A DNA stretch of 64,000 nucleotides from Candidatus Omnitrophota bacterium (GTDB lineage Bacteria > Ratteibacteria > UBA8468 > B48-G9 > JAFGKM01), in contig JAMWDI010000004.1 of the NCBI GenBank assembly GCA_023819375.1, positions 62,001 to 126,000 on the forward strand, read 5' to 3'. Made by a program: the position numbers and the translations under genes. A model generated the notes under the pieces. The model saw nothing but the letters and a program-made list of their open reading frames with translations, searched no databases and had not been told where the DNA came from. Shown here in pieces: positions 14,304 to 62,009 of the stretch (position 1 is the first letter of the stretch; each line of letters opens with the position of its first letter).

Positions 14304-14332
14304 ATTTTATCACAATTCAAAGATAAACTCAA
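14304..14332 (-). promoter_or_regulatory. Promoter of the pseudopilin-yfcE-cinA-mltG unit, predicted leaderless
   Basis: Read on the minus strand: TTGAGT (14332-14327), 17 bases, TAAAAT (14309-14304), then only seven bases to the ATG at 14296. Transcription would start at or one base before the ATG. No Shine-Dalgarno sequence is present. Confidence 0.62.
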
Positions 14333-14452
14333 ATCTTTAAAAGAAAAAAGATTAATTTTTGTTTTCTAAAAAGAAGTATATATTCTCTCCTCAGGACATT
14401 ATAATCGTTAACTAATTATTTTTCTTCAATTTTATTTTTAAGAAAAAAAAAC

Positions 14453-14481
14453 TTGACAAAAATTTTTTTTGTGATTAAAAT
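14453..14481 (+). promoter_or_regulatory. Promoter of the lacI-type gene, predicted leaderless
   Basis: TTGACA at 14453-14458, a 17-base spacer and TAAAAT at 14476-14481. The ATG at 14490 is only eight bases further on, so the transcript should start about two bases before the start codon; no Shine-Dalgarno sequence exists. Confidence 0.7.
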
Positions 14482-14489
14482 AGAAAACG

Positions 14490-15548
14490 ATGTCAGACAA
14501 TAGGACAAAAAATAAAATTACAATTGTTGAAGTGGCAAAAAAAGCGGGTGTAAGTATTAAAACAGTTTCTCGTGTAATTAATAATATGCCATATGTCAGT
14601 GAAGAGACGAGAAAAAAGGTTTGGAAAGTTATTGAAGAATTAAATTATTTTCCAAGGATTGAGGGAAGGCAACTTGCTTTTTTGAAAAGAAATAATAATC
14701 TAAAAACAGGAAATATTGGTTGTCTTATATTTCCAACTTATAACAAATATTCAGAACCATTTTTTGCAGAACTTCTTGAAGAGGTTGATAAAGTTTTACT
14801 TGAATTTAACCTGCATAAATATTTTTTCCATACACTTTCGGAATTGAAAGATCCGTCTCTTTTTATAAAAATGATAAATCCAAATGTAATAGATGGATGT
14901 GTTATACTTGGGTCAGGAGAAAAATATAGGGAAGATATTATAAGAATATATAAAAGGATAAAAAATGTTGTAATTTTATGTGATTTTATTGATTGTGATG
15001 AAATTGCCTGTTTTTATCCAGATGGTATTAAAGGTGGATATATGGCAACAAATTATTTGATTTCTCTTGGACATAGAGTTATTGGATGTATTACTGGATA
15101 TTTAAATTGGCCTGAATATTCACAATTGAGGTTAAAAGGATATAAGAAAGCACTTGAAGACGCAGGGATATTATTTGATGTAAAACTTGTTGAGGAAGGG
15201 AAATATAGTATAGAAGGAGCTTCGCAGGCAGTAAAGAAATTAATAGAAAGAAATCCAGAAATGACAGCAATATTTGTTGTTTCAGATCCTATGGCTGTGG
15301 GTGTTTATAAAGGGCTTGCTGAAATAGGAAAAAGGATACCAGATGATATATCAGTAATAGGTTTTGACAATATTAAAATTGGAGAACATTTACATCCAAG
15401 TTTGACAACAATATCTGTAGATAAATATAGTTTGGCCAAAGAGGGAATAAAAGTATTAATTGACGAAATAAATACTGGCAATAAAACAGGAATGAAAGTG
15501 GCTTTTCCCGTTACATTGGTTGAAAGAGATTCTGTAAGAAAGATATAA
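14490..15548 (+). CDS. LacI/GalR family transcriptional regulator
   Basis: Regulator of 352 residues. The N-terminal helix-turn-helix (ITIVEVAKKAGVSIKTVSRVIN, seen in part) is followed by the hinge (GRQLAFLKRNN, with a leucine where LacI inserts one into the minor groove) and a periplasmic-binding-protein-like effector domain: SEPFFAELLEEVDK, HRVIGCITGY and ISVIGFDNIKIGEHLHPSLTTI. It should bind a sugar and control genes nearby; the glycan operon beginning 127 bases downstream is the obvious candidate, and the divergent pseudopilin unit a second one. It has its own strong promoter with almost no 5' leader. Confidence 0.92.
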   Translation: MSDNRTKNKITIVEVAKKAGVSIKTVSRVINNMPYVSEETRKKVWKVIEELNYFPRIEGRQLAFLKRNNNLKTGNIGCLIFPTYNKYSEPFFAELLEEVDKVLLEFNLHKYFFHTLSELKDPSLFIKMINPNVIDGCVILGSGEKYREDIIRIYKRIKNVVILCDFIDCDEIACFYPDGIKGGYMATNYLISLGHRVIGCITGYLNWPEYSQLRLKGYKKALEDAGILFDVKLVEEGKYSIEGASQAVKKLIERNPEMTAIFVVSDPMAVGVYKGLAEIGKRIPDDISVIGFDNIKIGEHLHPSLTTISVDKYSLAKEGIKVLIDEINTGNKTGMKVAFPVTLVERDSVRKI

Positions 15549-15611
15549 AAATGAAAAAATTTATTTTATTTAGTGAAACCAAACTTTTAGAGATTATATT
15601 ACCCTTTTTCC

Positions 15612-15638
15612 CACTCCCTTGCCAATTACAAGGGAGTG
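15612..15638 (+). promoter_or_regulatory. 10-base inverted repeat over the glycan-operon promoter (operator or RNA hairpin)
   Basis: CACTCCCTTG at 15612-15621 is repeated inverted as CAAGGGAGTG at 15629-15638, with a 7-base centre. It is GC-rich in an AT-rich gap and overlaps the -35 and spacer of the promoter at 15619-15646. No T run follows, so a classical terminator is unlikely. The spacing differs from the usual LacI operator with a central CG, so the cognate factor is uncertain. Confidence 0.55.
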
Positions 15639-15646
15639 ATTATATA
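15619..15646 (+). promoter_or_regulatory. Promoter of the glycan operon
   Basis: TTGCCA at 15619-15624, 16 bases, TATATA at 15641-15646. The start would lie near 15653, giving a ~22-base leader that contains AAGGAGG at 15662-15668 before the ATG at 15675. It is embedded in the inverted repeat described separately. Confidence 0.5.
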
Positions 15647-15674
15647 GAGATTAAATTTTATAAGGAGGTGCATT

Positions 15675-16379
15675 ATGAAAAATAAATTTTCAAAGAGGGC
15701 TTTTTCAAAACTATATGGTTTTACTTTAATAGAATTGTTGGTGGTTGTGGCAATCATTGCTATTTTGGCAGCAATGCTATTGCCAGCACTTAGTAAAGCA
15801 AGAGAAAAAGCAAGACAAATTTCATGTATAAATACTCTTAAACAGTGGGGTAATGCTTTGCAAATGTATGCACAAGATTATGATGAATTCTTACCCTTTT
15901 GGATAGATTACAGCCCTGGACCGACTCATTTTTGGTTTTATTGGGCATATCCTTACATCCAAGGAAAAAGAACGGGATATGCAGAATGGCAGACAAATAT
16001 ATGTAAGTATATAAACTGTCCTTCAAGATTGTACAGATTGACTCCACCAGATATGGCGGATTCCAACAAAATTTCAACATATATTAGTTATGGTTTTAAT
16101 TATGGTATATTAAGAAGGAAAGGTGGCTGGCCAAATCCTGGATTTTCAAGAAAAATAACAGATATTATGCGACTTGAAAGAGTTATTATTGGAGATTCAG
16201 GAAATAAAACTACCAGGGGTTATTATGGTTTCAGTGCTACCAATTATACTCGGGTTGCTTATGATATTCATATGAATGGAGGAAATTATCTTTTTGGTGA
16301 CAATAGTGTTAGGTTTTTCACTTATCAACAAATGGTAAATCAAAGGAATAAATTGCTTGGCGACATTTATGATTACTAA
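15675..16379 (+). CDS. Prepilin-type protein with H-x9-DG-like C terminus
   Basis: Protein of 234 residues with a 15-residue basic leader cut at G/F, then [59 protein letters not shown] and a C-terminal [18 protein letters not shown] that resembles the H-x9-DG signature. This is the prepilin-like (DUF1559-related) family expanded in Planctomycetes, Lentisphaerae and related lineages, where members sit beside polysaccharide-degradation genes. It heads the LacI-linked operon with a strong AAGGAGGTG site. Its role may be a surface or periplasmic fibre component; function is unproven for the family. Confidence 0.88.
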
Positions 16380-16414
16380 TTTATCTATAATTTTATATTA
16401 AAGGTTCTTCAGAA

Positions 16415-17962
16415 ATGATGAAAAGTTTAGTTTTTTTGGTAATTTGTGTGACTTTTTTGGATTTTTCATTTGGGGAAACAATATCTGTTGAATGGACAGG
16501 AAAAGATAATACTTCTCGTATTTTAGAAATTGAAACAGATCAACCTTTTAATGGAACATTAAAATCCTTATATTATGGAGAGAACAAATTAATTCGTGGT
16601 AGTAAGATTATTTTTGAAGAGAAAAAACTTTGGGAAAGTGAGGCTGATGATGCTATAAAAAATGTCAAATTTCAAAAATTAGAAAAATTTTTTTCTGAAT
16701 ATGCAAAAGTAATAATGACTGAATCTATAATTCAATGGGAAGAGAAGAAGATAAAAGTAAAACATTTCTTTTATGTCTTTGATGGAGATGATGGGCTTTA
16801 TTGTAGATATGTTCTTGAACCTGAAGGAAGTTTTGAATTAATAAGAATATGGAGAGTTGACCATTTTGATCATTTAGGAGAAGGATTGGTTAAAAAGAAT
16901 CATTTTAAAGATAAAAATCTTCAGGGATGGTCAGAATGGTCTTTTGAAGGAGCACCTTTTAGTTTATCTCAGATTTATATTAGTGTTCCTGGTTGGTATT
17001 CACCTTCTTATTGGAAGAATTGGACTGACTGGGATATAGACATCAGATATAAGGCAACACAACATAATATTCTTTATAATGAAAAAAAATTTCTCTTTGA
17101 TAATCCCATAAGATTTGATTTTGCATTTTTCCCTTCAAGTGATGATGACCCTTCTTCATCAGAAGCAAAAGGCAGTACATATTATGAGCAAGTAATTAAA
17201 AAGACAGGATATGGCCTGGATGCAATTAAAGGAAAAAATATAAAAGATATAATTTTTAGCAAAGGACATATAAAGATAACTGCACAAGATTTACCTTTTG
17301 AATTTGAAATAAAGTGTTTACCAGAAAATCAAGGGGTTTTTCTTTTTATTATAAGTGAGATGAGTAAAAAGCCAGAAGCAATATATATATTAAAAAATGG
17401 AAAAAAGGAAATGGTTTATAATTCCAGTGTTTTGGATATATGGAAAGATGAGAAAGGATATAATACTGCTTTCTTTTTAAAGACAGGAAGTTATAAGATA
17501 GTTGTAGAACCGGAAAAACCAGATGTTCAGATAAAACAAAATCCTAAGTATGTTGTTTTTTGTGGCAGTAATAATGATAAAGAATGGGATGAAGGAGAAA
17601 AATATGGTTGTGTAAAAGGCAAAGTTTATCTTGGATGGGCAACAAGTGCTCCTGGTGTAGTTGATTTTGAAAAAATTATAAGAGAAGATAGCGAGAAAGT
17701 AATTTATAGATTTACAGGATTTGATGAAAATAAGAATTACAAAGTTAGATTGGGGTTTTATAATGAAAATGATGAAAAGAGATTAAGAATAACAATTGGA
17801 AAGGTTTCTTTAGGAGATGTGGTTTTACCTGTGGAAAAGATAACATATTTTGAGAAAGAAATACCAAAAGAAGGGATTATAAATGGCATTATTGATCTCG
17901 TTATTGAAGTAATAAACGGAGCAAAAGCTCTTATCTCTAAAATATGGATTTTTGAAGAATGA
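16415..17962 (+). CDS. Secreted protein of unknown function, probable carbohydrate-binding beta domains
   Basis: A 515-residue protein I do not recognise. An N-terminal signal peptide (MMKSLVFLVICVTFLDFSFG) is clear. The body is rich in aromatic residues and predicted beta strands (HFDHLGEGL, GWSEWSFEG, WYSPSYWKNWTDWDIDIRY). Residues ~380-515 (CGSNNDKEWDEGEKYGCVKG, KNYKVRLGFYNENDEKRLRI, LVIEVINGAKALISKIWI) look like a galactose-binding/malectin-like sandwich, as found in sugar-binding modules. It lies between the prepilin gene and the giant glycosidase, so a role in binding or cleaving a glycan is plausible. No catalytic motif is identifiable. Confidence 0.7.
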   Translation: MMKSLVFLVICVTFLDFSFGETISVEWTGKDNTSRILEIETDQPFNGTLKSLYYGENKLIRGSKIIFEEKKLWESEADDAIKNVKFQKLEKFFSEYAKVIMTESIIQWEEKKIKVKHFFYVFDGDDGLYCRYVLEPEGSFELIRIWRVDHFDHLGEGLVKKNHFKDKNLQGWSEWSFEGAPFSLSQIYISVPGWYSPSYWKNWTDWDIDIRYKATQHNILYNEKKFLFDNPIRFDFAFFPSSDDDPSSSEAKGSTYYEQVIKKTGYGLDAIKGKNIKDIIFSKGHIKITAQDLPFEFEIKCLPENQGVFLFIISEMSKKPEAIYILKNGKKEMVYNSSVLDIWKDEKGYNTAFFLKTGSYKIVVEPEKPDVQIKQNPKYVVFCGSNNDKEWDEGEKYGCVKGKVYLGWATSAPGVVDFEKIIREDSEKVIYRFTGFDENKNYKVRLGFYNENDEKRLRITIGKVSLGDVVLPVEKITYFEKEIPKEGIINGIIDLVIEVINGAKALISKIWIFEE

Positions 17963-17975
17963 AAAGGAGACCCTA

Positions 17976-20900
17976 ATGAATAAAATAATGGTAAGTATAT
18001 ATTGTTTTTTCTCAATACTATACAATGTATGTTCCTATGGGGAAATAAGCATAAAAGAGGAATATGTTCTTACTTTCAATCCTTTAGAAAAAACACTCAA
18101 CCACTATGGGATAGAAATTCCATATGAAGAAACAAAAATTTCTTTTCCTGTAGAATATATGAAAATTGTTAATTTAGAAAATGGAGAAGAGTGTGATTTT
18201 CAGATTGAAGATAGGAATGTCAATGGTATTTTTGATGCAGGAGATATCCTTTACTTTATCTCTGACTTAAAACCTGGATATTCTCTTTTTAAAATATTAA
18301 GTTCGCCTGAAAAAAGAAATGTAAAGGAACTGTTATTTGCAAAATTAGAAGGAGAAAAGATTATAATTTCTGGAAATGGTTTTTCTGTTGTATTTTCCGG
18401 GAAAAGCGGTCTACCTGAAAAATATATAATGTATGACAAGGAAATATCTTTTTCTTCTGTGATTCGTGTATATGGGGTTACATCTGGAAGGATAAAAGGA
18501 ATAAACTTTAATGAGTTTAAAGGAGAAATAAATCAATTATCTGATTGTATAGTAAAAGTTGAAAAATATCCATTGCGTTCCAGAATAAATTTTAAAAAAG
18601 GAGAAATATCTGGTTATTTCTATGTTTATCCTGATGGAAAAATAGAAGGAAATATAAATGGTGATAAGAACATAATTACAGGAGTTATTGTTTTAAATAA
18701 TATTCCTCTTGAAAGAATAGAAGAAACACTTCTTGGTATGAATTCTGGTAGTATTTTTTCAAAACCAGCAAGATATATCTGTGGAGGAAGGTTTTTCTTT
18801 GGAGGAGTGAAGGGTAAAGGGGAAACTTTAGGCATAGGAATTGCACAGCCACATAAGGAGTTGGATAGACCCTATCCATGGATATGGATTCCTCATAAAG
18901 ACAGAGGTTTTGTTAATAATTCTACTTCTATTTGGTTGAACCATCTTCCTGGTGACAGATTTGTTATAATTCCTTTTACATCAAAAGAAGAAGTTAATAA
19001 AAAAGTTGAAGATTTAAGAGTAAATGTAAATGTATGGGTAGGAGAAAAACTTTCTACTATGTGGAATGAAGAAAAGGACTTCTTTAAAAAAGGGTTTGAT
19101 TACCTAAATAAAATAGGAAGCAATTTTACTCCACCTGATTTAAGTTCCTATTTCAATTTTAAGAATATAATTTCAGGATATAAAGAAATAGATAGATTGA
19201 TAGAAAAGTATATAGAAGAAGGCAAAAAAGAAACAACAAAGTTAGAAAAAGAAGGATGGGAAACAGTTGGAATAAAAATAGCGCTTGAATATGCAAAAAT
19301 TCTTTCCGGTATTGCAAAATTAGATAGATCTCTTGGAAGGATAGATAGGTATCATAAAAGGACACTTGAAGGTCTTAAAGAATTAACCTTTGCTTTTGAA
19401 AGAATAAAAAAGCAGATTCCAAAACAATTATTTGGAAAGAAAGCAGAGTATTTTCATGGGATGAATATATTTACTGCTTGTTATGCCAGACCTGATGGTT
19501 CTGATTATGGATATTGTGCGAATATTTATGAACCACTTCTTGAAGATGATTTTTGGAAAGCATTTGATATTGCTGATATAGAATATGTCCATTTAAATTT
19601 CACCTGGGACCGGCTTGAGCCAGAAGAAGGTATATATAATTTTTCTGAATTAGATAAATTTATGGAAATTTTAGCCAAACATAATAAAAAGGTTTATTTT
19701 CAAATAGGAGATAATATTTCTATAGGAATGGCACCAAAATGGGCAGTGAAGAAGTATCCAGAGTGGGTATATCGCGATGATAAAGGCAATTGGAGAGAAA
19801 GAGATGCTTTTGTTTGGGTATCTCCTGAATTGTTTGGAGAAACACCTGGATGGATGACGCATCTTCAAAAATTAGTTAATAAAATAGTGGAAAGATACAA
19901 GCCATATGAAAAAAATATTGCTGCCTGGGGTATATGGAATGAACCTGGTTTTAGGAATTATGGAAAAGATTTTTTATTTCAACAGGAACTTTTTTTAACT
20001 TGTTTCCGTAACTTCCTGAAAAAAAGATACAATTCAATTGAAGAATTAAATAGATACTGGGGTACTTCTTATAAATCTTTTGATGAAATAAAAAAACCAG
20101 AGTTTATTAAGGCGGAAATAAAAGATTCACTTTCTTTAAATGGAAAATGGTTATTTAAAATAGATCCAAAAGATGAAGGTGTATCTCAGAAATGGTATAC
20201 AGATAAGGTTAAAAAAGATAATTGGAGAACTATTGAAGTCCCTGGATTTTGGGAAACACAGATTTCTGAATATAAGAATTATGACGGTGTCGCCTGGTAT
20301 TGGAAAGAGATAAATATCCCAGAAAATCTTAAAAGATATTTTCTTGTGCTTAAGTTTGGTGGTGTAGATGATGATTGCACTGTTTATATTAATGGTGAAA
20401 AGGTATATGAAAATAAAGGTTACAATATACCCTTTGAAATACCAATCAGTAATTTTATTAAAGATGGGAAATTACAAATTGCTGTGAGAGTAGTAGACAC
20501 ATTCCAATTAGGTGGGATATGGAGAGATGTATTGATTGTTCCTGTAGGAATTGCTATTTCTTATTATGCATTTCCTGCACAAGCTACCGATTGGAATGAT
20601 TTTATAAATGAACAATTGGTTGGCTTCCTTGGTTTTTTCAATTCTGGTGTGCGAAAAATATCTTCTCTTCCTGTGGCTGAAAAAACAGGACAAGAAATAG
20701 ATAGGTTTTGTATGCTTTACAGTGCCGCAGATGAATTTTCAAAAGACAGTATATACTATGATATGGCTGCGTTTGATTTTTATAATCCTGTTAAAGAAAT
20801 AAATTGGCATGCAGATCTGTCAAGATGTGCACATAACAATAAAAAACCTATATGGATAGGAGAATATGGTGGATATACAGAGGACCATAAAGGACATTTA

Positions 20901-22001
20901 CGTATTTATGCAAAGGACATTCCACATACATCTTGGAGCGCTTTCTTACATGGTGTTAAAGGATTTTACCATTGGCTATGGACAGGTTATGGTGGGATGT
21001 CAGACCATATGGGTTCTCCAGAAGATGAGTTTATAGAGGCAGCAAAATTAAATGTATGGGGTAAAGTAGCAGGTGAACTCTTTTCAGCACAACCAGAAAG
21101 AAAAATTGCTATATTCTTTCCACATCTTTCTACACTTCTTGGAGATGAAGACACAATACGTTTAAGGTGGCAATCGCTTTATTATATGCTTAATGATATG
21201 AATGTTCCTATTGATTTTATTGATTGGAAACAAATTAGAGATGGTAAACTTTCTCAATATAAACTTTTGATCATTCCTTCAAGTCCATTTATAAGACAGG
21301 AAATTGTAGAAAAAATAAAAGAGTATGTAAAAAATGGTGGCAAAATTATTGCCTATTCTGATTTTGGTATATGGAATGAAAAAGGAACCATTTCAACACC
21401 ACCTTATCCTGGTTTTAACCTTTATGAAATTTTTGGGGCAATACTGAATATCAATACTTCTATGCTTGAAGAAGATACTGTAATTAAAAATACAGAAATA
21501 CCTGTTAAAAGTCGCCATATAATCGTCCCTATAGAAACAACACATGCAAATGTTTTTTGCGAAACAGAAAAAGGGTTACCATTAATTACTAAAGCCAAAT
21601 ATGGACAGGGAATTGCTTATCTATGTAGCTTAGATTTGGGCAAGTTATATGAAAATCTTTTATCAAATGATTCCAAAAAAGCAAAAGAATTTGTAGAATT
21701 TATATGGAAAATTTTGGACGAAAATAATGTTTCTCCCGAGATTAAATTATGGAGCCCTGGCATAGAAGCACAAGTTATAAAAAATGATCAGGCCTTATAT
21801 CTGGTAATAAATAATCGTCTTTCTTTTAGTTTTAATGTGAATTTAATGTTAAAGAGAAATATTATAGAAAGTGAATTTATTTATGATTTAATTTCTTGTG
21901 AAAAACATACTTTAACAAAAACAGGAGAAAATTATCTTTTGAAAACCACAGTTGCGGCAGGTAATGTCAGAATATTTTTTCTAAAGAAAATTAAAAAATG
22001 A
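17976..22001 (+). CDS. Giant secreted GH42-type beta-galactosidase-like glycosidase with inserted GH2-like sandwich domain
   Basis: A 1341-residue exported enzyme (signal peptide ~1-23). Residues ~25-330 form a beta-rich N-terminal region, ~360-480 a helical linker, and ~490-1035 a GH42-type barrel: FHGMNIF, HLNFTWDRLEPEEG, the acid/base Glu656 in WGIWNEPGF and the probable nucleophile Glu963 in PIWIGEYGG. Between them, at ~716-858, lies an extra sandwich like the GH2 sugar-binding domain (LNGKWLF, VPGFWETQ, VAWYWKEINIP, GGVDDDCTVYINGEKVYEN). Residues ~1042-1240 resemble the GH42 flavodoxin-like trimerisation domain (LLIIPSSPFIRQEIVEKI). ATG 17976 has AAAAGGAGA upstream; an in-frame TTG at 17952 lies inside the previous gene. 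Confidence 0.82.
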   Translation: MNKIMVSIYCFFSILYNVCSYGEISIKEEYVLTFNPLEKTLNHYGIEIPYEETKISFPVEYMKIVNLENGEECDFQIEDRNVNGIFDAGDILYFISDLKPGYSLFKILSSPEKRNVKELLFAKLEGEKIIISGNGFSVVFSGKSGLPEKYIMYDKEISFSSVIRVYGVTSGRIKGINFNEFKGEINQLSDCIVKVEKYPLRSRINFKKGEISGYFYVYPDGKIEGNINGDKNIITGVIVLNNIPLERIEETLLGMNSGSIFSKPARYICGGRFFFGGVKGKGETLGIGIAQPHKELDRPYPWIWIPHKDRGFVNNSTSIWLNHLPGDRFVIIPFTSKEEVNKKVEDLRVNVNVWVGEKLSTMWNEEKDFFKKGFDYLNKIGSNFTPPDLSSYFNFKNIISGYKEIDRLIEKYIEEGKKETTKLEKEGWETVGIKIALEYAKILSGIAKLDRSLGRIDRYHKRTLEGLKELTFAFERIKKQIPKQLFGKKAEYFHGMNIFTACYARPDGSDYGYCANIYEPLLEDDFWKAFDIADIEYVHLNFTWDRLEPEEGIYNFSELDKFMEILAKHNKKVYFQIGDNISIGMAPKWAVKKYPEWVYRDDKGNWRERDAFVWVSPELFGETPGWMTHLQKLVNKIVERYKPYEKNIAAWGIWNEPGFRNYGKDFLFQQELFLTCFRNFLKKRYNSIEELNRYWGTSYKSFDEIKKPEFIKAEIKDSLSLNGKWLFKIDPKDEGVSQKWYTDKVKKDNWRTIEVPGFWETQISEYKNYDGVAWYWKEINIPENLKRYFLVLKFGGVDDDCTVYINGEKVYENKGYNIPFEIPISNFIKDGKLQIAVRVVDTFQLGGIWRDVLIVPVGIAISYYAFPAQATDWNDFINEQLVGFLGFFNSGVRKISSLPVAEKTGQEIDRFCMLYSAADEFSKDSIYYDMAAFDFYNPVKEINWHADLSRCAHNNKKPIWIGEYGGYTEDHKGHLRIYAKDIPHTSWSAFLHGVKGFYHWLWTGYGGMSDHMGSPEDEFIEAAKLNVWGKVAGELFSAQPERKIAIFFPHLSTLLGDEDTIRLRWQSLYYMLNDMNVPIDFIDWKQIRDGKLSQYKLLIIPSSPFIRQEIVEKIKEYVKNGGKIIAYSDFGIWNEKGTISTPPYPGFNLYEIFGAILNINTSMLEEDTVIKNTEIPVKSRHIIVPIETTHANVFCETEKGLPLITKAKYGQGIAYLCSLDLGKLYENLLSNDSKKAKEFVEFIWKILDENNVSPEIKLWSPGIEAQVIKNDQALYLVINNRLSFSFNVNLMLKRNIIESEFIYDLISCEKHTLTKTGENYLLKTTVAAGNVRIFFLKKIKK

Positions 22002-23134: not shown

Positions 23135-23146
23135 TAAGGAGAAAAA

Positions 23147-24409: not shown

Positions 24410-24424
24410 AAAAGGAGAAATAAG

Positions 24425-26548: not shown

Positions 26549-26554
26549 AGATTA

Positions 26555-26581: not shown

Positions 26582-26610
26582 TTGACTTGGAAGATAGAGT
26601 GTGATTTAAT
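26582..26610 (+). promoter_or_regulatory. Promoter of the MEMO-family gene, predicted near-leaderless
   Basis: TTGACT at 26582-26587, 17 bases, TTTAAT at 26605-26610, with the ATG at 26620 nine bases later. The transcript would have about three bases of leader, and no Shine-Dalgarno sequence is present. Confidence 0.55.
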
Positions 26611-26619
26611 AACTTTAAA

Positions 26620-43508: not shown

Positions 43509-43522
43509 TTTTTTCTTGAAAA

Positions 43523-43551
43523 ATTATACCATTTTTAAAAAACTTTATAAA
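43523..43551 (-). promoter_or_regulatory. Extended -10 promoter of the ABC permease gene
   Basis: On the minus strand TGGTATAAT gives a consensus TATAAT (43528-43523) with an upstream TG; the -35 TTTATA (43551-43546, 17-base spacing) is poor. Fourteen bases separate it from the ATG at 43508, so the leader would be about eight bases, with no Shine-Dalgarno sequence. Confidence 0.5.
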
Positions 43552-45402: not shown

Positions 45403-45431
45403 ATTTTATCACAACTACTTTAATTTGTCAG
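45403..45431 (-). promoter_or_regulatory. Promoter of the GH127 gene, sharing its -35 with the ftsK promoter
   Basis: On the minus strand CTGACA (45431-45426), 17 bases, TAAAAT (45408-45403), and 27 bases to the ATG at 45375. The -35 overlaps the opposite ftsK -35 (45425-45430), so the two polymerases cannot bind at once. Confidence 0.55.
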
Positions 45432-45454
45432 GAATTATTAAGGTATGGTAAATT
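45425..45454 (+). promoter_or_regulatory. Promoter of ftsK, predicted near-leaderless
   Basis: TTGTCA at 45425-45430, 18 bases, TAAATT at 45449-45454 with a TG three bases before it (extended -10). The ATG at 45464 is nine bases on, so the leader would be about three bases. No Shine-Dalgarno sequence. Confidence 0.5.
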
Positions 45455-45463
45455 ATTAATAGT

Positions 45464-50167: not shown

Positions 50168-50183
50168 AAAAACAATAAATATA

Positions 50184-50212
50184 ATTATACTTTCTTTTTA
50201 AGATATTGCCAA
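50184..50212 (-). promoter_or_regulatory. Promoter of the PAS/HD-GYP gene, sharing its -35 with the divergent gene
   Basis: On the minus strand TTGGCA (50212-50207), 17 bases and a perfect TATAAT (50189-50184); 16 bases separate it from the ATG at 50167, so the leader is about ten bases. No Shine-Dalgarno sequence. Confidence 0.65.
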
Positions 50213-50234
50213 CTTTAAAATTTTTAAATAAAAT
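50206..50234 (+). promoter_or_regulatory. Promoter of the secreted TIM-barrel-like gene, predicted near-leaderless
   Basis: TTGCCA at 50206-50211, 17 bases, TAAAAT at 50229-50234, then nine bases to the ATG at 50244. A TATACT at 50235-50240 is too far from the -35. No Shine-Dalgarno sequence. Confidence 0.6.
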
Positions 50235-50243
50235 TATACTTTG

Positions 50244-51359
50244 ATGAAAAACAAAATTTTTTTGATATTGCTTTTTTCATTCAATATTTATTCAGAAAAA
50301 CTTATAATATATGCAGGTTCACCAATAAGAAGTTTAAAAAATTCTAAACTTTTTGAATTTATTGAACTTATTAAAGATTCTGGTTTTAATGCTGTCCATT
50401 TAAATTATGGTTTTGAAAAAATCAATTTTGAAACATATAAAAAGGCATCAGATATAGGGCTTAAAATATTCATTCATATTGGTTCACCGAAGAAAATAGG
50501 AGAAAGAAATGCTGTTGATTCTCAAGGCAGAAATTTAAATATTGAGTGTCCATTAAATGAAAAAATATGGAAAAGTTTAATTTTAGATAGGATTACAGAA
50601 TTTTTTAATAAATATAAAGGGGAAAAGTTTTTAGATTCAGTTATTGGGATTCATTTCGATATTGAGAGTTATGTAGATCCTGATATATGTTACTGTGATT
50701 ATTGCTTTTACAAATATATGGAAATGAAAAAATTGAAAAGTAATGTAAGAAAAGAAGAAAGAAAAGAATATCTTTTTGAAAAGGGACTTTTACTGGATTA
50801 TAAAAATTTTCTGAAAAATAATCTTGAAAACATTTTTAAAGAGATAAAGAAAAAAATTAACTCTTTTAATGATGCTCTTTTGATTTCCTATTATCCATTT
50901 TCTTATAAAGGAATTGTTTTTCCATTTAAAATTTTTTTCACTTTTCTTTTGCCTTCCAAATTTCCTCCTCCATTATGGTGGTATGTCTACAGAAAGTCAG
51001 AATGGATTTCTCATGCTCTTTTGAAAGGTATGGCAGATGAAAAAAATTCTGTTATTTTATGGGATGATTATTATTACTGGAGTGGATATATACCCGGTTA
51101 TGATAAATTAGTTAATAAAAAATTGAAAAAGGTTCTTAATTACAAGGTAAGATGGATGGGGAGTATTGATTACTTATCTGATTGTTTTGGAAAAGCAGAT
51201 TATACTCCGGAAAGAGCAGGAAGAGAATTTTATGAATTGCTGAAAAATAATGAATATGGAGCGATTTTATATGGTGAAATTAAAAAAGATACAGATATCT
51301 ATGAATCCCATCTTCCCTATCTTCAAAAGATTAAGCAATATTTAATTTTGCAAAAATGA
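50244..51359 (+). CDS. Secreted putative glycosidase-like TIM-barrel protein with a Cys cluster
   Basis: A 371-residue protein beginning with a signal peptide (MKNKIFLILLFSFNIYS). The body reads like an alpha/beta barrel: SGFNAVHLNYGFEKI, IGLKIFIHIGSP, VIGIHFDIESYVDPD, ALLISYYPFSYKG and GAILYGEIKKDTDIYE. The segment ICYCDYCFYKY matches the C-x-C-x2-C zinc-type cluster seen in GH42-like and related barrel glycosidases, and the Glu of DIESY is a candidate catalytic acid. I cannot name a family. It stands alone, with a promoter opposing that of the HD-GYP gene, and ends four bases from the convergent radC. Confidence 0.6.
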   Translation: MKNKIFLILLFSFNIYSEKLIIYAGSPIRSLKNSKLFEFIELIKDSGFNAVHLNYGFEKINFETYKKASDIGLKIFIHIGSPKKIGERNAVDSQGRNLNIECPLNEKIWKSLILDRITEFFNKYKGEKFLDSVIGIHFDIESYVDPDICYCDYCFYKYMEMKKLKSNVRKEERKEYLFEKGLLLDYKNFLKNNLENIFKEIKKKINSFNDALLISYYPFSYKGIVFPFKIFFTFLLPSKFPPPLWWYVYRKSEWISHALLKGMADEKNSVILWDDYYYWSGYIPGYDKLVNKKLKKVLNYKVRWMGSIDYLSDCFGKADYTPERAGREFYELLKNNEYGAILYGEIKKDTDIYESHLPYLQKIKQYLILQK

Positions 51360-51363
51360 AAAC

Positions 51364-52056: not shown

Positions 52057-52057
52057 T

Positions 52058-52717: not shown

Positions 52718-52718
52718 T

Positions 52719-54007: not shown

Positions 54008-54019
54008 AACTTCCTCCTT

Positions 54020-54232
54020 TTATTTTTCTTTATAAATTTCAATTGCAACATCAGGACAAATTATAACACATCTTTTACAACCTGTGCAATTTTTCCCGTT
54101 AACAACTTCTACATAATGATAACCAATTTTGTTAAATTTATCAGAAACTTTAAAAATTCCATTTGGACAAACTTCTAAACATAATTTACAACTTTTACAT
54201 CTTTCTTTATCAATTTTTATAATATATTTCAT
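54020..54232 (-). CDS. 2[4Fe-4S] ferredoxin
   Basis: A 70-residue ferredoxin with two Cys motifs, CKSCKLCLEVCPNG and CTGCKRCVIICPD, spaced for two [4Fe-4S] clusters. The form resembles the delta subunit of 2-oxoacid:ferredoxin oxidoreductases, but no alpha, beta or gamma subunits are adjacent. Its ATG overlaps the nadK stop (ATGA). It may donate electrons to iron-sulfur enzymes, for instance those of the isoprenoid route started by dxs, encoded upstream; that is inference. Confidence 0.9.
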   Translation of the reverse strand: MKYIIKIDKERCKSCKLCLEVCPNGIFKVSDKFNKIGYHYVEVVNGKNCTGCKRCVIICPDVAIEIYKEK

Positions 54233-55005: not shown

Positions 55006-56818
55006 TAATAAACTCCTTAATTCTCAGGTAAATTTTCTCAGGAGAAAGTCCATATTCATCAAGAAGTAAATCTCTATCTCCATGTTCTATAAAAACACAA
55101 GGTAACCCAATCCTTAAAACATCTTTTTTAATTCTCATATCAGATAGTATTTCAAGAATATAACTTCCAAATCCACAGGATAAAACATTCTCTTCAATAG
55201 TTATAATTTTATCGGATGTTAAAATTTTGCCAAGTTGAGTTTTTTCTATAGGTAAAATTTGGGAAACAGGAATAAAATTAGCCTTGTAATTTTCTTTTTT
55301 TAATTTTTCATATGCAAAATAAGAATTAAAGGATAGACTTCCAACAGGGACAATTGAAATTTTATTTTCTTCATCATATTCTTCTTTTAAACTTTCTGGA
55401 AGTATGTCTCTTGGATATCTTATAAAAACAGGCATTTTTTCAAAAATTGAATTTTCAATTATTTTTTTTAAATTTTCTAAACTATAGGGAGCATAAATTT
55501 TCAAATTAGGAATACTTCTCAAAAATGAAATATCAAAAATACCGTGATGGGTTGGACCATCTTCACCAACTATACCACTTCTATCAATAAGAAAAATAAC
55601 AGGTAAATTTTGAAGACATATATCATGTAATATTTGATCATATGCTCTCTGTAAAAATGTGCTGTAAATTGCAACAAAAACATTTATCCCTGTTTTTGCA
55701 ATTCCAGAAGCAACAACAACTGCATTACTTTCTGCAATACCTACATCAAAAAATCTGTCTGGGTATTTTTGGGCAAAATTTTCAAGTCCTAAGCCTTTTT
55801 CCATTGCCGCAGTTATGACAAAAAATTCATATTTTTCTGCAAGTTCTTCAAGGATCTGACCAACAAATTTTGAATTTGTTCTTTTCTCTTCTTTTATTTC
55901 TCCTGTTTCTATCTTAAATGGAAAAACTGAATGAAATTTTTCGGGATTTTCTTCGGCAAATCTATATCCCTTTCCCTTTTTTGTTATTATATGTAAAATT
56001 ACCGGCTCTTCAATATTTTTAATATTTTCAAGAATTTCAATTAATTGTTCAATATCATGACCATCTATTGGGCCGAAATATCTTATACCAAGTTTTTCAA
56101 AAAAAACACCAGGTATTATTAAAAATTTGGCCTTTTTTTCAATCTCCTTTGTTAACTTTAAGATGTCATCTCCTATTGTTGGTATTTTTTTTAAAATTTC
56201 AACAAATTCCTTTCTTGGTTTATTTATAACTGGAGAAGTAATTAATTTTGTAAGATAATATGAAAGAGCGCCTTTGGTTGGAGAAATTGACATTTTATTA
56301 TCATTAAGAATAATCTTTACATTTTTTTTAATACTTCCAAGAAAATTAAGTCCTTCAAAGGTTAAACCATTTGTTAAAGAGCCATCTCCAATAAATGCAA
56401 TTATTTTCTCATTTTCTTTTTTATAATCTTTACCAATTTTAAGTCCAACAGCAGAAGAAATAGAAGTTCCAGCGTGTCCAACTAAAAAAATATCATTTGG
56501 ATTTTCTGATGGATTTGGGAAACCACTTATGCCTTTATATTTTCTTAAACTTTCAAATTTCTGGTATCTTGTTAAAATCTTATGTGTATAGCATTGATGT
56601 CCAACATCCCATATTATTTTGTCAGGGGGGATATCAAAAACTCTATGAATTGCAACTGTTATTTCAACAGTTCCAAGATTTGAGGAGAGATGTCCTCCAT
56701 TTTTAGAAACAACCTTAATAATTAGATTTCTTATTTCTTCGCATAATTGATTTAACTCATCTATAGAAAGATTTTTTAAGAGAGAATAATTATCTTTTAT
56801 CTGCTCCAGAATCTTCAT
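54998..56818 (-). CDS. dxs: 1-deoxy-D-xylulose-5-phosphate synthase
   Basis: DXS of 606 residues, first enzyme of the MEP isoprenoid pathway. The ThDP motif GDGSLTNGLTFEGLNFLG and NDNKMSISPTKGALS, the interdomain KGKGYRFAEENPEKFHS and the Glu-containing DRSGIVGEDGPTHHGIFDIS are characteristic. N-terminal HVGHQCYTHKILT also fits. The start overlaps the TPR gene's stop (ATGA). Other MEP genes are not in this window. Confidence 0.97.
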   Translation of the reverse strand: MKILEQIKDNYSLLKNLSIDELNQLCEEIRNLIIKVVSKNGGHLSSNLGTVEITVAIHRVFDIPPDKIIWDVGHQCYTHKILTRYQKFESLRKYKGISGFPNPSENPNDIFLVGHAGTSISSAVGLKIGKDYKKENEKIIAFIGDGSLTNGLTFEGLNFLGSIKKNVKIILNDNKMSISPTKGALSYYLTKLITSPVINKPRKEFVEILKKIPTIGDDILKLTKEIEKKAKFLIIPGVFFEKLGIRYFGPIDGHDIEQLIEILENIKNIEEPVILHIITKKGKGYRFAEENPEKFHSVFPFKIETGEIKEEKRTNSKFVGQILEELAEKYEFFVITAAMEKGLGLENFAQKYPDRFFDVGIAESNAVVVASGIAKTGINVFVAIYSTFLQRAYDQILHDICLQNLPVIFLIDRSGIVGEDGPTHHGIFDISFLRSIPNLKIYAPYSLENLKKIIENSIFEKMPVFIRYPRDILPESLKEEYDEENKISIVPVGSLSFNSYFAYEKLKKENYKANFIPVSQILPIEKTQLGKILTSDKIITIEENVLSCGFGSYILEILSDMRIKKDVLRIGLPCVFIEHGDRDLLLDEYGLSPEKIYLRIKEFIND

Positions 56819-58167
56819 TTTTTAATCAAATTTTTAAGTTCTTCAATTTTTTCTGCAATCTCTTTTTTGTTTAATTTTTCGTAAGCCTTTATAAAATAAT
56901 AAAGAGATTTGAAATAATCTTTCAACTGATAATAAAGGTAACCAAGATGTTCATAAATTTCAGGGTCTTCTTCAAGTTTTACTGCTTTTTCAAGATATAT
57001 CTTTGCTTTTTTATAATCTCCCATTTTATAATAAGCCCAACCCAGACTGTCAAGATAAGCCCCATTATTAGGTTCTATTTTACAGGCCTTTTTAATCATT
57101 TCATATGCTTCTTTAATATTTTTGTCCTTTAAAAGATATGTATAGCCAAGGTAATTCAAAGCAAGTGAATTTTCAGAGTCAAGTTCTATTGCTTTTTTTA
57201 AATTTTCCTCCATCTTTTCAAAATTTCCAATTTTATCATATAATACCCCAAGTTTAAATCTTGTTAACGATGAGTCCTTTATGTTTATGCTTTCAATAAA
57301 ATATTTTTCTGCCATTTGATAATTTTTCTCCTCAAAATATAATGAACCAAGAAAATCAAAAAATTCTTTTTCTTTAAGACCAGTTTCAATTGCTTTTGTA
57401 AGTAATTCTTTAACCTTATCATCATTTTTTTCACTATAATAAATTGTGGCAAGAAGAGAATATGAGATTTTATCTAAAGGGTTTATTTCAATACTTTTTT
57501 CGTAAAATTTTTTTGCTTCTTCAATTTTTCCTTGTTTTTGATATAACATTCCAAGTGATAGATATGCTTGCCAGAAATCAGGTAAAATTTTTATACTTTC
57601 AAGATACTCCATTTCGCTTTCTTTATATTTATTTTGAAGTTCATAAATTTTTGCCAGATTATAATGTAAGAGATAATTTGAAGGATAATCTTCCAGTAAA
57701 ATTTTATAATGTTTTTCGGCAGATTTATAATCTTTCAAATAATTTGAATAGATTTCACATAGAAGTAATCTAAATGAGTCTTTTTTGGGTTCTAATTTTA
57801 AGCCTTTTTCAAAAGTCCTTGAAGCATCTTTGTATTTTTTCTCAAATAAATATGTAACTCCAAGGCCAAAATAAGCATCAGGAAGAGAAGGATTAATATT
57901 TAATGCTTTTTGGTAATTCTCTCTTGCTTTTATAAATTCTTTTCTTTTTAAATAATTCTCTGCAATCTTAACATAAAGATAAGCATCTTCACCACCAACT
58001 TTAATGGTTTCTTTAAATTTCTTTATTGCTTCTTCATTTTCTTTATCGTCTTTCTCTAAAAGAAGGCCAGATACATATATTTTTAAAGCATCAGTTTTTC
58101 TTTTAGAAGAAACAGCACATCCATTTAAAACAATCAAAATCACCAATAAAATTAAAAATTTTTTCAT
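56815..58167 (-). CDS. TPR-repeat lipoprotein
   Basis: A 450-residue exported protein: signal peptide with a good lipobox (ILIVLNGC, Cys17), then about ten tetratricopeptide repeats, e.g. PDAYFGLGVTYLFEKKYKDA, NYLLHYNLAKIYELQNKYKE, ALNYLGYTYLLKDKNIKEAY, AYLDSLGWAYYKMGDYKKAK. TPRs make protein-binding superhelices, so it probably serves as an envelope scaffold. Its ATG overlaps the stop of the tiny ribosomal gene by one base, and its stop overlaps dxs. Confidence 0.9.
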   Translation of the reverse strand: MKKFLILLVILIVLNGCAVSSKRKTDALKIYVSGLLLEKDDKENEEAIKKFKETIKVGGEDAYLYVKIAENYLKRKEFIKARENYQKALNINPSLPDAYFGLGVTYLFEKKYKDASRTFEKGLKLEPKKDSFRLLLCEIYSNYLKDYKSAEKHYKILLEDYPSNYLLHYNLAKIYELQNKYKESEMEYLESIKILPDFWQAYLSLGMLYQKQGKIEEAKKFYEKSIEINPLDKISYSLLATIYYSEKNDDKVKELLTKAIETGLKEKEFFDFLGSLYFEEKNYQMAEKYFIESINIKDSSLTRFKLGVLYDKIGNFEKMEENLKKAIELDSENSLALNYLGYTYLLKDKNIKEAYEMIKKACKIEPNNGAYLDSLGWAYYKMGDYKKAKIYLEKAVKLEEDPEIYEHLGYLYYQLKDYFKSLYYFIKAYEKLNKKEIAEKIEELKNLIKK

Positions 58168-58259
58168 TATTTTCTTTTCTTATGTCTCATTGCCTTTCTT
58201 CTTTTTTTGTATTTATGCCTTTTTACCTTTTTAATCTTTCTCTTCCTTCCACATGGCAT
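58167..58259 (-). CDS. Tiny basic ribosomal-type protein (AURKAIP1/COX24 domain, bS22-like)
   Basis: A 30-residue protein read MPCGRKRKIKKVKRHKYKKR and ending RRKAMRHKKRK. Over half the residues are Lys/Arg. It matches the AURKAIP1/COX24 (mS38/bS22-type) proteins, small components of the small ribosomal subunit in several bacterial lineages. A strong AAAAGGAGG lies six bases before the ATG, which supports real translation. The stop TAA overlaps the ATG of the TPR gene (TAATG). It sits between hisG and the TPR lipoprotein, too short for routine gene calling. Confidence 0.85.
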   Translation of the reverse strand: MPCGRKRKIKKVKRHKYKKRRKAMRHKKRK

Positions 58260-58271
58260 AACATCCTCCTT

Positions 58272-59141
58272 TTATATAACCTTATTCAAAGGATATTCAA
58301 CTATTCCATTTGCACCAAGTTTTTTAAGTTTTGGTATTAATTCTTTTGCTTTATTTTTATCTATTATTGTTTCAACTGCATACCAGTTTTCATCGGTGAG
58401 GTGAGAGATAGTTGGTTTCTTTATTGCAGGTAAAATTTTTAAAATTTTTTCAAGATTTTTCTTTTCTACATTCATTTTTAAGCCAACTTTTCCTTCTGCA
58501 GTTAAAGCACCTTTAAGTAATAAGGCAATGTTTTCAATCTTTTCTCTTTTCCATTTGTCTTTCCAGGATTCTTTATTTGCAATTAATCTTGGTGTTGACT
58601 CCATTATAACGTCAATTATTTTTAAATTATGGGAAAGAAGAGTTGAGCCAGTTTCAGTAATTTCCACAATAGCATCAACCAGATTGCCTGCTTTAATTTC
58701 AGTTGCACCATATGAAAATTCAACATTTGCTTTAACATTATGTTTTTTTAAATATTCTTTTGTTAAATTCACAAGTTCTGTTGAAATCGTTTTCCCTTCA
58801 AGATCTTTAACGCTTTTAATGTTTGATTTTTCAGGAACTGCAAGAACTATTTTTACTGGTTTAAAACCTGTTTTTGAATAAGTAAGTTCACAAACTTCAA
58901 CAATTTTTGCCTTATTTTCTTCAATCCAGTCTTTTCCTGCAATGCCTGCATCAAAGGCACCAGATTCAACATATCTTGGTATTTCCTGGGTTCTTAACAA
59001 AACACATTCTATTTCTGGATCATCAATTGAAAGATAATAGCTTTTTGAATTAGCATAAATTTCAAATCCAGCCCTTTTAAAAATTAATAAGGTTGTTTCT
59101 TGTAAAGAACCTTTCGGTAAAGCAAGTTTAACCTTATTCAC
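58272..59141 (-). CDS. hisG: ATP phosphoribosyltransferase (long form)
   Basis: HisG of 289 residues, first step of histidine synthesis. It has the catalytic domain (KLALPKGSLQETTLLIFKRA, ESGAFDAGIAGKDWIEE, DAIVEITETGSTLLSHNL, with the PRPP-binding loop) and the C-terminal ferredoxin-like regulatory domain of the long form (LKMNVEKKNLEKILKILPAI) that senses histidine. I place the start at GTG 59141, which follows AAGGAG at six bases and overlaps the accA stop by eight; an ATG nine codons upstream adds residues atypical for HisG. No other his genes are nearby. Confidence 0.95.
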   Translation of the reverse strand: MNKVKLALPKGSLQETTLLIFKRAGFEIYANSKSYYLSIDDPEIECVLLRTQEIPRYVESGAFDAGIAGKDWIEENKAKIVEVCELTYSKTGFKPVKIVLAVPEKSNIKSVKDLEGKTISTELVNLTKEYLKKHNVKANVEFSYGATEIKAGNLVDAIVEITETGSTLLSHNLKIIDVIMESTPRLIANKESWKDKWKREKIENIALLLKGALTAEGKVGLKMNVEKKNLEKILKILPAIKKPTISHLTDENWYAVETIIDKNKAKELIPKLKKLGANGIVEYPLNKVI

Positions 59142-60105
59142 TTTCTTCTCCTTCTTTGAATACTCCAATTTTTCTATATTTTTTATACCTTAACTCAATA
59201 AGTTCATCAATTTTTATCATTTTTAATTCTTTTAAATTCTTTTCAATTGCACTTTTCATATATTCAAAAGTTTTCTCCCAATCACTATGAGCACCCCCAA
59301 GTGGTTCAGGAATTATTTCATCAATAATGCCGAGTTCTAATAAATCTCGTGATGTTAATTTTAGTGCTTTTGCTGCTTCTTCAACTGCATTTTGAGATTT
59401 CCACAAAATAGATGCACAACCTTCTGGAGAGATTACAGAATAAATTGAAAATTCCTGCATTAAAACTCTATCTCCGAGTCCAATACCAAGAGCACCACCA
59501 CTTCCGCCTTCTCCAATTATTATACATAAAATAGGGGTTCTTAAAAGTGACATTTCCAGTAAATTTATTGCTATGGATAATGCTTGTCCTCTTTCTTCTG
59601 CTTCAATATCAGGATGTGCTCCAGGAGTATCAATAAAAGTAACAACAGGGAATGTAAATTTTTCAGCAAGTTTCATTATTCTTAATGCTTTTCTATACCC
59701 TTCTGGATGGGCCATCCCAAATTTTCTATCTATATTTTCTTTTGTTTCTCTCCCTTTTTGATGTCCAACAAAGGCAACTGTCATACCAAGAAATTTACCA
59801 AATCCACTTACAATTGCAGGATCATCTTTAAAAGCTCTATCTCCATGCAATTCTATATATTCATCAAAAATATTATCAAGATAATCAAGAGTATGAGGCC
59901 TGTTTGGATGTCTTGCAATTTGAACAATTTGCCAAGGAGTAAGATTGGAGTATATTTCCTTTTTCTTTTCAATTAATAATTGTTTAAGTTTTACAATTTC
60001 TGTATTTTTCACTATAGGGTCAATCTTTTTATTTTTTTCAATCTCTTCAATTTTTCTCTCAATCTCTTCAATTGGTTTTTCAAAAGGAAGGTATTTTTTT
60101 TCCAT
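59134..60105 (-). CDS. accA: Acetyl-CoA carboxylase carboxyltransferase subunit alpha
   Basis: AccA of 323 residues. TPWQIVQIARHPNRPHTLDY, FMTVAFVGHQKG-like GMTVAFVGHQKGRETKE, VTFIDTPGAHPDIEAEERGQ, IIGEGGSGGALGIGLGDRVL and SPEGCASILWK are all family signatures. It transfers carboxyl from biotin-BCCP to acetyl-CoA together with AccD, which is not in the window. It starts one base after gatC and overlaps hisG at its end. Confidence 0.97.
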   Translation of the reverse strand: MEKKYLPFEKPIEEIERKIEEIEKNKKIDPIVKNTEIVKLKQLLIEKKKEIYSNLTPWQIVQIARHPNRPHTLDYLDNIFDEYIELHGDRAFKDDPAIVSGFGKFLGMTVAFVGHQKGRETKENIDRKFGMAHPEGYRKALRIMKLAEKFTFPVVTFIDTPGAHPDIEAEERGQALSIAINLLEMSLLRTPILCIIIGEGGSGGALGIGLGDRVLMQEFSIYSVISPEGCASILWKSQNAVEEAAKALKLTSRDLLELGIIDEIIPEPLGGAHSDWEKTFEYMKSAIEKNLKELKMIKIDELIELRYKKYRKIGVFKEGEESE

Positions 60106-60399
60106 TTAGATTATCCTTGGGACTTTAAAAAAATCATCATCTTTGTCAGGTGCATTTTTAAGTATTTCTTCTTTTGAAGTAGAACTTTCTGGTATATCAT
60201 CTCTAAAGACATTTTTTAAAGGGAGAACGTGATAAGTTGGCTCAATATTTTCTGTATTTACTTCATTCAATTTTGATATATATTCAAGAATTTTTCCTAA
60301 TTCTTTTTCAAATTTTTTCTTTTCTTCCTCTGTTAATTCAATCCTTGCCAATCTACCTAAATATTCAACATCTTCTTTTTTGATTATTTTCTCTTTCAT
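60106..60399 (-). CDS. gatC: Aspartyl/glutamyl-tRNA(Asn/Gln) amidotransferase subunit C
   Basis: GatC of 97 residues: IIKKEDVEYLGRLARIELTE, KFEKELGKILEYISKL and the NTENIEPTYHVLPLKNVFRDD belt that wraps GatA and GatB. It heads the long minus-strand operon and is separated from gatB. Its ATG lies six bases from a -10 box, so the mRNA should start exactly at the start codon. Confidence 0.93.
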   Translation of the reverse strand: MKEKIIKKEDVEYLGRLARIELTEEEKKKFEKELGKILEYISKLNEVNTENIEPTYHVLPLKNVFRDDIPESSTSKEEILKNAPDKDDDFFKVPRII

Positions 60400-60405
60400 A
60401 TTTTC

Positions 60406-60434
60406 ATTTTATAATTTATTTTCGGAAAGGTCAA
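60406..60434 (-). promoter_or_regulatory. Promoter of the gatC-accA-hisG-... operon, predicted leaderless
   Basis: On the minus strand TTGACC (60434-60429), 17 bases, TAAAAT (60411-60406), then six bases to the ATG at 60399. With a normal -10-to-start distance the A of ATG is the first transcribed base. No Shine-Dalgarno sequence. Confidence 0.7.
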
Positions 60435-60465
60435 GCAAAGTCAAAGGATTTAAAAAAGTGAAAAT

Positions 60466-60493
60466 TTGACAGAAAATTTTAAAAAAATAAAAT
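60466..60493 (+). promoter_or_regulatory. Promoter of the rhamnulokinase-fchA-folD-hydrogenase unit, near-leaderless
   Basis: TTGACA at 60466-60471, 16 bases, TAAAAT at 60488-60493, with the ATG at 60504 ten bases on. A second TAAAAT at 60495-60500 is too far from the -35. No Shine-Dalgarno sequence; the leader would be about four bases. Confidence 0.6.
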
Positions 60494-60503
60494 TTAAAAT
60501 AAA

Positions 60504-62009
60504 ATGGGGAAAATCTATATAGCCATAGATCTGGGGGCTGAAACAGGAAGGGGGATAATTGGAGAATTTGATGGAGAAAAGTTAAAAATAAAGGAAATTT
60601 ACAGATTTCCGACACACCATTCAAAAATTTTAAATCATAGATTCTGGGATGTTCTCTCAATATTTGAAGAAATAAAAAAAATTTTAATCATTGCAAAAAA
60701 TGAAGGAGAAATAACAGGAATTGGTATAACTACTTGGGGAGTTGACTGTGGATTTATCGGGGAAAATGATATTTTACTTTCCAATCCTTTTCATTATAGG
60801 GATGAAAGAACAAATAATATAATGGAAGAGGTTTTCAATATTGTTCCAAAGGAAAGAATTTTTAGAGAAACAGGAATTCAGTTCATGCCAATTAATACTC
60901 TTTTCCAGCTTTACGCAACAAAAAAAGAATTTCCATTTTTAATAGAAAATTGTAAATATCTTTTGTTTATGCCTGATTTATTTAATTTCTTCTTAACAGG
61001 AGAAAAATTTTGTGAATATACAATAACAAGTACTTCTCAAATGTATAACTCATTAGTTTCAGGACAAAATAAAGCACCAAGAGGAAACTGGTGTTATGGG
61101 TTACTTGAAGAACTTGGAATTAAAACAGATTTTCTACAAATGGTTATTTCACCAGGTACACAAATAGGATATCTTGCTAAAACATTACAGGAAGAACTTT
61201 CTTTACCATCTATCCCTGTTTTTGCTGTTTGCTGTCATGATACTGCATCTGCTGTTGTTGCTACACCTGCAAAAGAAGAAAAATGGGCTTATTTATCTTC
61301 AGGAACATGGTCATTATTAGGAATTGAAATTGAAGATCCAATAATAAATGAGAAAGTTTTAGAATATAATTTTACAAATGAAGGTGGTTTTGGTGGTTCT
61401 ATAAGATTTTTAAAAAATATAATGGGATTATGGATTTTACAGGAGTGTAAAAGAGAATGGGATAAAAATGGAAAAAAATACACCTATGAAGAACTTGTTG
61501 AAATGGCTAAAAATTCAATTCCATTTTATTCATTCATTGATGTTAATAGTTCAGATTTTATTTATCCTGGAAATATGGTTGAGAAAATTAAGAATTACTG
61601 TAAAAAAACAGGCCAAAAAGTTCCAGAAGATATACCCCAAATAACAAGAATTATTTTGGAAAGTTTAGCAATGGAATATAGGTATGTCATAGAAAGACTT
61701 GAAGAGATCGTTGGATATGATATTGAAACTATTTATATAGTTGGTGGTGGCAGTAAAAATTACTTACTTTCTCAATTTACCGCATCTTCAACTAAAAAAT
61801 TGGTTATTACAGGTCCAACTGAAGCGACTTCAATTGGAAATATTCTTGTTCAGGCATTTGCAAAAAGAGAAGTAAGGGACATAAAAAATATAAGAGAAGT
61901 AATAAGAAACTCTTTCCCATTAATTATTTATAGACCAGATGAAATCACAAGATGGGATGAAAATTATGATAGATATTTAAAATTAAAGGAATTTCATTAT
62001 GGACTTTGA
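60504..62009 (+). CDS. rhaB: Rhamnulokinase-type FGGY carbohydrate kinase
   Basis: A 501-residue FGGY kinase. IAIDLGAETGRGIIGEFDGE opens the first actin-fold domain; GITTWGVDCGFIGENDI, YRDERTN and HDTASAVVATPA follow; the second domain has EYNFTNEGGFGG and YIVGGGSKN-like VGGGSKNYLLSQFTA for ATP binding. These match rhamnulokinase, which phosphorylates rhamnulose, though other sugars are possible. Rhamnose isomerase and aldolase genes are not in the window. It overlaps the next gene by 11 bases. Confidence 0.85.
   Translation: MGKIYIAIDLGAETGRGIIGEFDGEKLKIKEIYRFPTHHSKILNHRFWDVLSIFEEIKKILIIAKNEGEITGIGITTWGVDCGFIGENDILLSNPFHYRDERTNNIMEEVFNIVPKERIFRETGIQFMPINTLFQLYATKKEFPFLIENCKYLLFMPDLFNFFLTGEKFCEYTITSTSQMYNSLVSGQNKAPRGNWCYGLLEELGIKTDFLQMVISPGTQIGYLAKTLQEELSLPSIPVFAVCCHDTASAVVATPAKEEKWAYLSSGTWSLLGIEIEDPIINEKVLEYNFTNEGGFGGSIRFLKNIMGLWILQECKREWDKNGKKYTYEELVEMAKNSIPFYSFIDVNSSDFIYPGNMVEKIKNYCKKTGQKVPEDIPQITRIILESLAMEYRYVIERLEEIVGYDIETIYIVGGGSKNYLLSQFTASSTKKLVITGPTEATSIGNILVQAFAKREVRDIKNIREVIRNSFPLIIYRPDEITRWDENYDRYLKLKEFHYGL

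Follow-up and report, generated by a model that had tools for sequence, protein, structure and literature searches.

The stretch analysed here (hereafter the window) comprises 64,000 nucleotides (nt) of a Candidatus Omnitrophota genome, corresponding to positions 62001-126000 of one contig. The genome measures 1.73 Mb in 13 contigs, has a G+C content (GC) of 28% and is 94% complete. Contigs bearing the labels Candidatus Ratteibacteria (a candidate phylum in the NCBI listing) and Candidatus Omnitrophota carry the nearest counterparts of the FtsK protein encoded in the window, at 71% for the former (part of the protein) and 65% for the latter. An Rfam search of the window returned no match. The initial annotation had singled out seven transcription-unit heads whose -35/-10 promoter pair ends 6-10 nt before the ATG, plus two at 14-16 nt, and had proposed that the first genes of operons are systematically translated from leaderless mRNAs.

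Each of the nine heads was scored anew under a genome-trained promoter model free of any positional prior; the gap is counted in bases from the end of the -10 element to the ATG. Two of the abutting promoters lie on the minus strand: that of the pilin-like gene 14296- (TTGAGT-17-TAAAAT at 14297..14332, gap 7, posterior 0.67) and that of the GatC gene 60399- (TTGACC-17-TAAAAT at 60400..60434, gap 6, posterior 0.97). On the plus strand, such promoters precede the LacI-family regulator gene 14490+ (TTGACA-17-TAAAAT at 14453..14489, gap 8, posterior 0.99), the gene of the MEMO1/AmmeMemoRadiSam B family 26620+ (TTGACT-17-TTTAAT at 26582..26619, gap 9, posterior 0.57), the FtsK-like translocase gene 45464+ (TTGTCA-18-TAAATT at 45425..45463, gap 9, posterior 0.37), 50244+, without family match (TTGCCA-17-TAAAAT at 50206..50243, gap 9, posterior 0.99), and the rhamnulokinase-like gene 60504+ (TTGACA-16-TAAAAT at 60466..60503, gap 10, posterior 0.94). 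The 6-10 nt spacing described for these seven heads is thus reproduced, with two of them, 26620+ and 45464+, individually weak next to the other five (0.67-0.99). The former is also the weaker "head", a gene on the same strand ending just 71 nt before it. The remaining two genes likewise show the distances originally given. The PAS/HD domain protein gene 50167- has a promoter with a short leader (TTGGCA-17-TATAAT at 50168..50212, minus strand, gap 16, posterior 0.88), and the ABC permease-like gene 43508- a possible one (TTTATA-17-TATAAT at 43509..43551, minus strand, gap 14, posterior 0.70).

A Shine-Dalgarno (SD) match of at least 4 nt is found upstream of none of the nine heads (0/9), while all five internal starts named for comparison (4226, 9828, 15675, 36401 and 58259) have SD cores of 5-8 nt, as the initial annotation had stated. 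The ATG at 58259 (minus strand), with a 7-nt match (AAGGAGG), opens no reading frame of at least 80 amino acids in the list of open reading frames (ORFs) and probably belongs to a short gene. The strong leaderless-type promoter at 50244+ serves a 371-amino-acid protein (50244-51359, plus strand) that matched nothing in Pfam and NCBIfam searches and whose relatives in the rest of the family are all distant and partial.

The proposal that the -10 position be aligned with start codons throughout the genome was carried out on the genome assembled from fetched stretches, in which 1587 genes were called by codon usage with upstream signals ignored. The 370 heads considered (232 divergent ones, and 138 on the same strand as the preceding gene with an upstream region longer than 120 nt) were fitted with a two-block promoter model that had a uniform position prior and was seeded with the sigma-70 consensus (TTGACA/TATAAT). 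The refined model retained both hexamers and gave spacers of 16, 17 and 18 nt weights of 0.29, 0.59 and 0.11; hexamers and 16-18 nt spacing are those of sigma-70 promoters. The position of the -10 element relative to the start is bimodal: the distribution rises sharply at 6-10 nt, falls to a trough around 15-19 nt and forms a second, broad peak around 20-30 nt. At divergent heads, TATAAT-like words number 11, 15, 20, 7 and 12 at gaps 6 to 10 and just 2 at each of gaps 5 and 11. The predicted peak is therefore present and, as described below, recurs in relatives. An enriched Pribnow-like signal at a fixed position about 10 nt upstream, the mark of TA-led genes in Zheng et al. (2011), is found here.

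In a genome of 28% GC, AT-rich upstream DNA might yield TATAAT-like words near any ATG by chance alone. The background is indeed high, and sites as weak as those of 45464 (0.37) and 26620 (0.57) could each be chance. At the genome level, however, this explanation is refuted. Gaps of 6-10 nt at the 232 divergent heads hold 42.3 expected promoters, as against 6.8±1.4 (maximum 9.8) in 60 local dinucleotide shuffles. A -35-like hexamer stands at spacer 16-17 for 30 of the 65 abutting -10-like hexamers, all other spacings being represented 0-2 times each. The promoter mass per start amounts to 0.182 for real starts, compared with 0.021 for in-frame internal ATGs and 0.042 for intergenic ATGs that are not starts, and the peak persists in relatives of 47 and 52% GC. 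A chance origin is thus extremely improbable for the peak, although it may account for individual weak sites. The same model applied to loci of other bacteria produced no such peak (1.5 of 85 Firmicutes-like heads and 2.4 of 316 mostly proteobacterial ones).

At a posterior threshold of 0.5, 53 heads have their -10 element at gap 5-11 (abutting) and 86 at 18-35 (distal). The two classes differ sharply in their SD sites, present at 2/53 abutting and 54/86 distal heads; the lack of an upstream SD is a further mark of leaderless genes in Zheng et al. (2011). Mere overlap of the SD position with the -10 element was rejected as the cause, since internal genes that happen to have a -10-like hexamer at that place carry an SD in 16 cases out of 70 (versus 2/53, p = 0.004). 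The start codon is ATG in 52 of the 53 abutting heads. About two thirds of each class (33/53 and 56/86) are closely followed by another gene, so both head operons. A special bias of abutting promoters toward divergent heads was also rejected (abutting:distal 47:70 for divergent and 6:16 for same-strand heads, p = 0.34); promoters close to the start are simply scarcer at same-strand heads.

Because the start calls are mechanical, it could be argued that the true start codons lie downstream and that these promoters make normal, short leaders with an SD. Just 3 of the 53 abutting heads, about the rate seen at distal heads (4/86), have within 90 nt a further in-frame start downstream that is preceded by an SD of at least 5 nt, and none of these starts is an ATG. 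Moreover, GatC and rhamnulokinase can be aligned with their counterparts in relatives from the first residue onward. Displaced starts are accordingly rejected in bulk and very unlikely as a general account. Divergent heads with an unambiguous start, that is with no earlier in-frame start, show the same excess (16.0%).

After background correction, the leaderless-type share is 11.0% of the 370 heads, or 16.5% of the divergent and 1.6% of the same-strand ones. This represents about 3% of genes (53/1587 called), below the roughly 20% or more that characterizes leaderless initiation as a major mode, of the Deinococcus-Thermus and Actinobacteria type. Leaderless starts thus appear to be a minority mode, used by roughly a ninth of operons (a sixth of the divergent ones), and not the rule. 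The initial annotation went further, making operon heads as a class leaderless and internal genes SD-led. Most divergent heads inside the window fit that version and the genome-wide peak is real, but the genome-wide distribution already contradicts it: more heads have their -10 element at 18-35 nt, most of them with an SD. Heads and internal genes likewise differ little overall, the same criterion finding an SD at 95/232 divergent heads (41%) and 471/964 internal genes (49%). An SD-less abutting class does exist, so this part of the two-mode proposal stands, while its systematic form is highly improbable. The 64-kb block in which the window lies has the highest count in the genome, with 5 of 8 divergent heads abutting as compared to 47/232 genome-wide, which accounts for the impression of a systematic rule.

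Genes with abutting promoters are a mixture of housekeeping and regulatory functions. They include those for L27, TyrRS, GatC, TsaE, DnaJ, FtsK and a V/A-type ATP synthase subunit, as well as DAP epimerase, a prepilin peptidase, Fur and AraC- and LacI-type regulators; we claim no functional enrichment. An unusual translation machinery was considered and rejected, an S1-like protein and IF3 being present and nothing exotic having been seen. Of the 35 genomes of the class, most encode the S1-like protein (about 450 amino acids, below the NCBIfam rpsA cut-off) and 29 encode IF3. The tail of the 16S rRNA, which carries the anti-SD, was not found on the single piece searched.

The arrangement extends to relatives. 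Across all 35 genomes of the class, the pattern TTGAC-N17-19-TAWAMT-N6-8-ATG has 483 matches, versus 141 when ATG is replaced by GTA and 204 when ATG is placed at N12-14. The count exceeds the GTA control in 35/35 genomes and the N12-14 control in 33/35. Three partial genomes analysed independently (G010, 35% GC; G008, 47%; G017, 52%) each show a peak at about 6-8 nt, with an SD in 1/29 abutting and 33/49 distal heads taken together. Inspection by eye found the gatC promoter (TTGAC.-17-TA...T-6/7-ATG) kept in same-genus relatives and in several further genomes, some from the same family and some from elsewhere in the order. It persists in another family of the order, at loci whose GC is 49-53%, which again speaks against AT richness as its source. 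In several genomes of family f2 of the same order, the gatC -10 element is, also by eye, further from the start, in some cases with an SD-like site. Individual genes follow suit: ftsK of a same-family locus (L022) is preceded by TTGCCT-17-TAAATT-8-ATG, at a rhamnulokinase locus (L180, from relative G001) the pair TTGACA...TAAAAT ends 10 nt upstream of the corresponding ATG, and TTGACA-17-TAAAAT-6-ATG is the arrangement at the pilin-gene homologue of G010.

Genomes G017 and G024, which belong to different families, both contain almost identical copies of one abutting promoter, TTGACTAACGATA(G/C)GTTAAGTTGTAAAATACCCGACATG, close to the ends of contigs. Examples in G017 are C29:101-139, C51:100-138, C58:101-139, C85:100-138, C91:96-134 and C32:28322-28360; in G024, copies lie on C20, C59 and C60. 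The probable source is a mobile element present in multiple copies, with a first gene that is of leaderless type as well. These copies slightly inflate the class-wide pattern counts.

By established promoter geometry, a sigma-70 -10 element that ends 6-10 nt before a start codon implies an RNA beginning at that codon or no more than about 4 nt away. We consider it highly probable (about 0.88) that a minority of transcription units in this genome are expressed as leaderless or near-leaderless mRNAs from ordinary sigma-70 promoters placed near the start codon. Promoter position, the coupling of -35 to -10, the lack of an SD and conservation are observed; from them we infer an RNA start 6-9 nt after the -10 element and translation from the 5′ AUG. 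In the mechanism envisaged, transcription from a housekeeping-sigma (sigma-70 type) promoter would begin at the start codon or about 0-4 nt from it, and the ribosome would initiate on the 5′-terminal AUG without SD pairing, by analogy with other bacteria. Many other units and internal genes use an SD (GGAG/AGGAGG) that lies some 5-9 nt upstream of the start. The leaders of 0-4 nt initially proposed agree with the promoter geometry.

Several points weigh against this interpretation. The mRNA 5′ ends, which in leaderless genes lie within a few nt of the start codon, are predictions from promoter geometry, and so are the leader lengths. The modal gap of 8 (range 6-10) exceeds by about 1-2 nt the value of 6-7 published for Deinococcus (PMC12340547); part of the mRNAs may therefore have 1-4 nt ahead of the AUG. 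The starts come from a codon-based caller, and 17 of the 53 abutting genes have an earlier in-frame start. Finally, an additional, more distant promoter may exist at any single gene.

More tentatively, the whole uncultured phylum-level lineage (Ratteibacteria, or Omnitrophota-labelled) may keep a stable leaderless minority, with gatC and other genes leaderless across families and SD-led in another. Within the lineage, the promoters of gatC range from leaderless-type to SD-led, and if the lineage-wide view holds true, such genes would offer a natural series in which to study switching of initiation mode. On the practical side, software that models SD sites alone when calling gene starts may place them wrongly in roughly one of every nine operons of this genome.

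Some side observations concern the LacI family, to which the regulator at 14490+ belongs. Outside the window, at G000:C2:350126-350237, two tandem copies of TTGACAAAATTTAAAAATAGTAATATAATGTAAACGTTTACAATG lie just upstream of a LacI-family gene at 350238. The sequence TGTAAACGTTTACA, a perfect palindrome of LacI-operator type, directly follows the -10 element, an arrangement suggesting that the gene is autoregulated. The window's genome (1.7 Mb) has 21 LacI-family regulator matches, compared with 0-12 in same-genus relatives; together with the rhamnulokinase and glycoside hydrolase genes, this abundance suggests a sugar-degrading lifestyle.

Leaderless genes have been found in 207 of 953 bacterial genomes, being "widespread, although not dominant" (Zheng et al. 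2011, PMC3160421), and GeneMarkS-2 predicted leaderless transcription for 21.6% of bacterial species (as quoted in PMC9581028). Omnitrophota and Ratteibacteria are not among the leaderless groups listed in PMC3160421, and our search of the open-licence literature found no report of leaderless genes in either. With the present data, a deep, uncultured lineage of bacteria joins those in which sequence supports leaderless initiation; the general picture is left unchanged, as minority use is already widespread. The architecture resembles that of Deinococcus-Thermus (PMC12340547; PMC3160421), where a TANNNT-type -10 element stands a few nt before the ORF without SD and genes led by a ribosome-binding site coexist. 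In D. radiodurans nearly one third of genes are of this kind, with the -10 motif 6-7 nt before the ORF (PMC12340547), and the phylum average is 39.4% (PMC3160421). The genome studied here differs in having about 3% of genes and 11% of heads in this class, a modal gap of 8 and a clear -35 element. In its low share and the admixture of SD it resembles instead the Firmicutes, beta-/gamma-Proteobacteria and Chloroflexi with minority leaderless use, in which about 4-7% of genes on average are leaderless where detected and the TA-like signal lies about 10 nt upstream (PMC3160421). It likewise resembles the leaderless class of GeneMarkS-2, which, as quoted in PMC9581028, combines leaderless and SD signals within one genome. 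The lineage is new and the kind is known, at the low-frequency end of the range.

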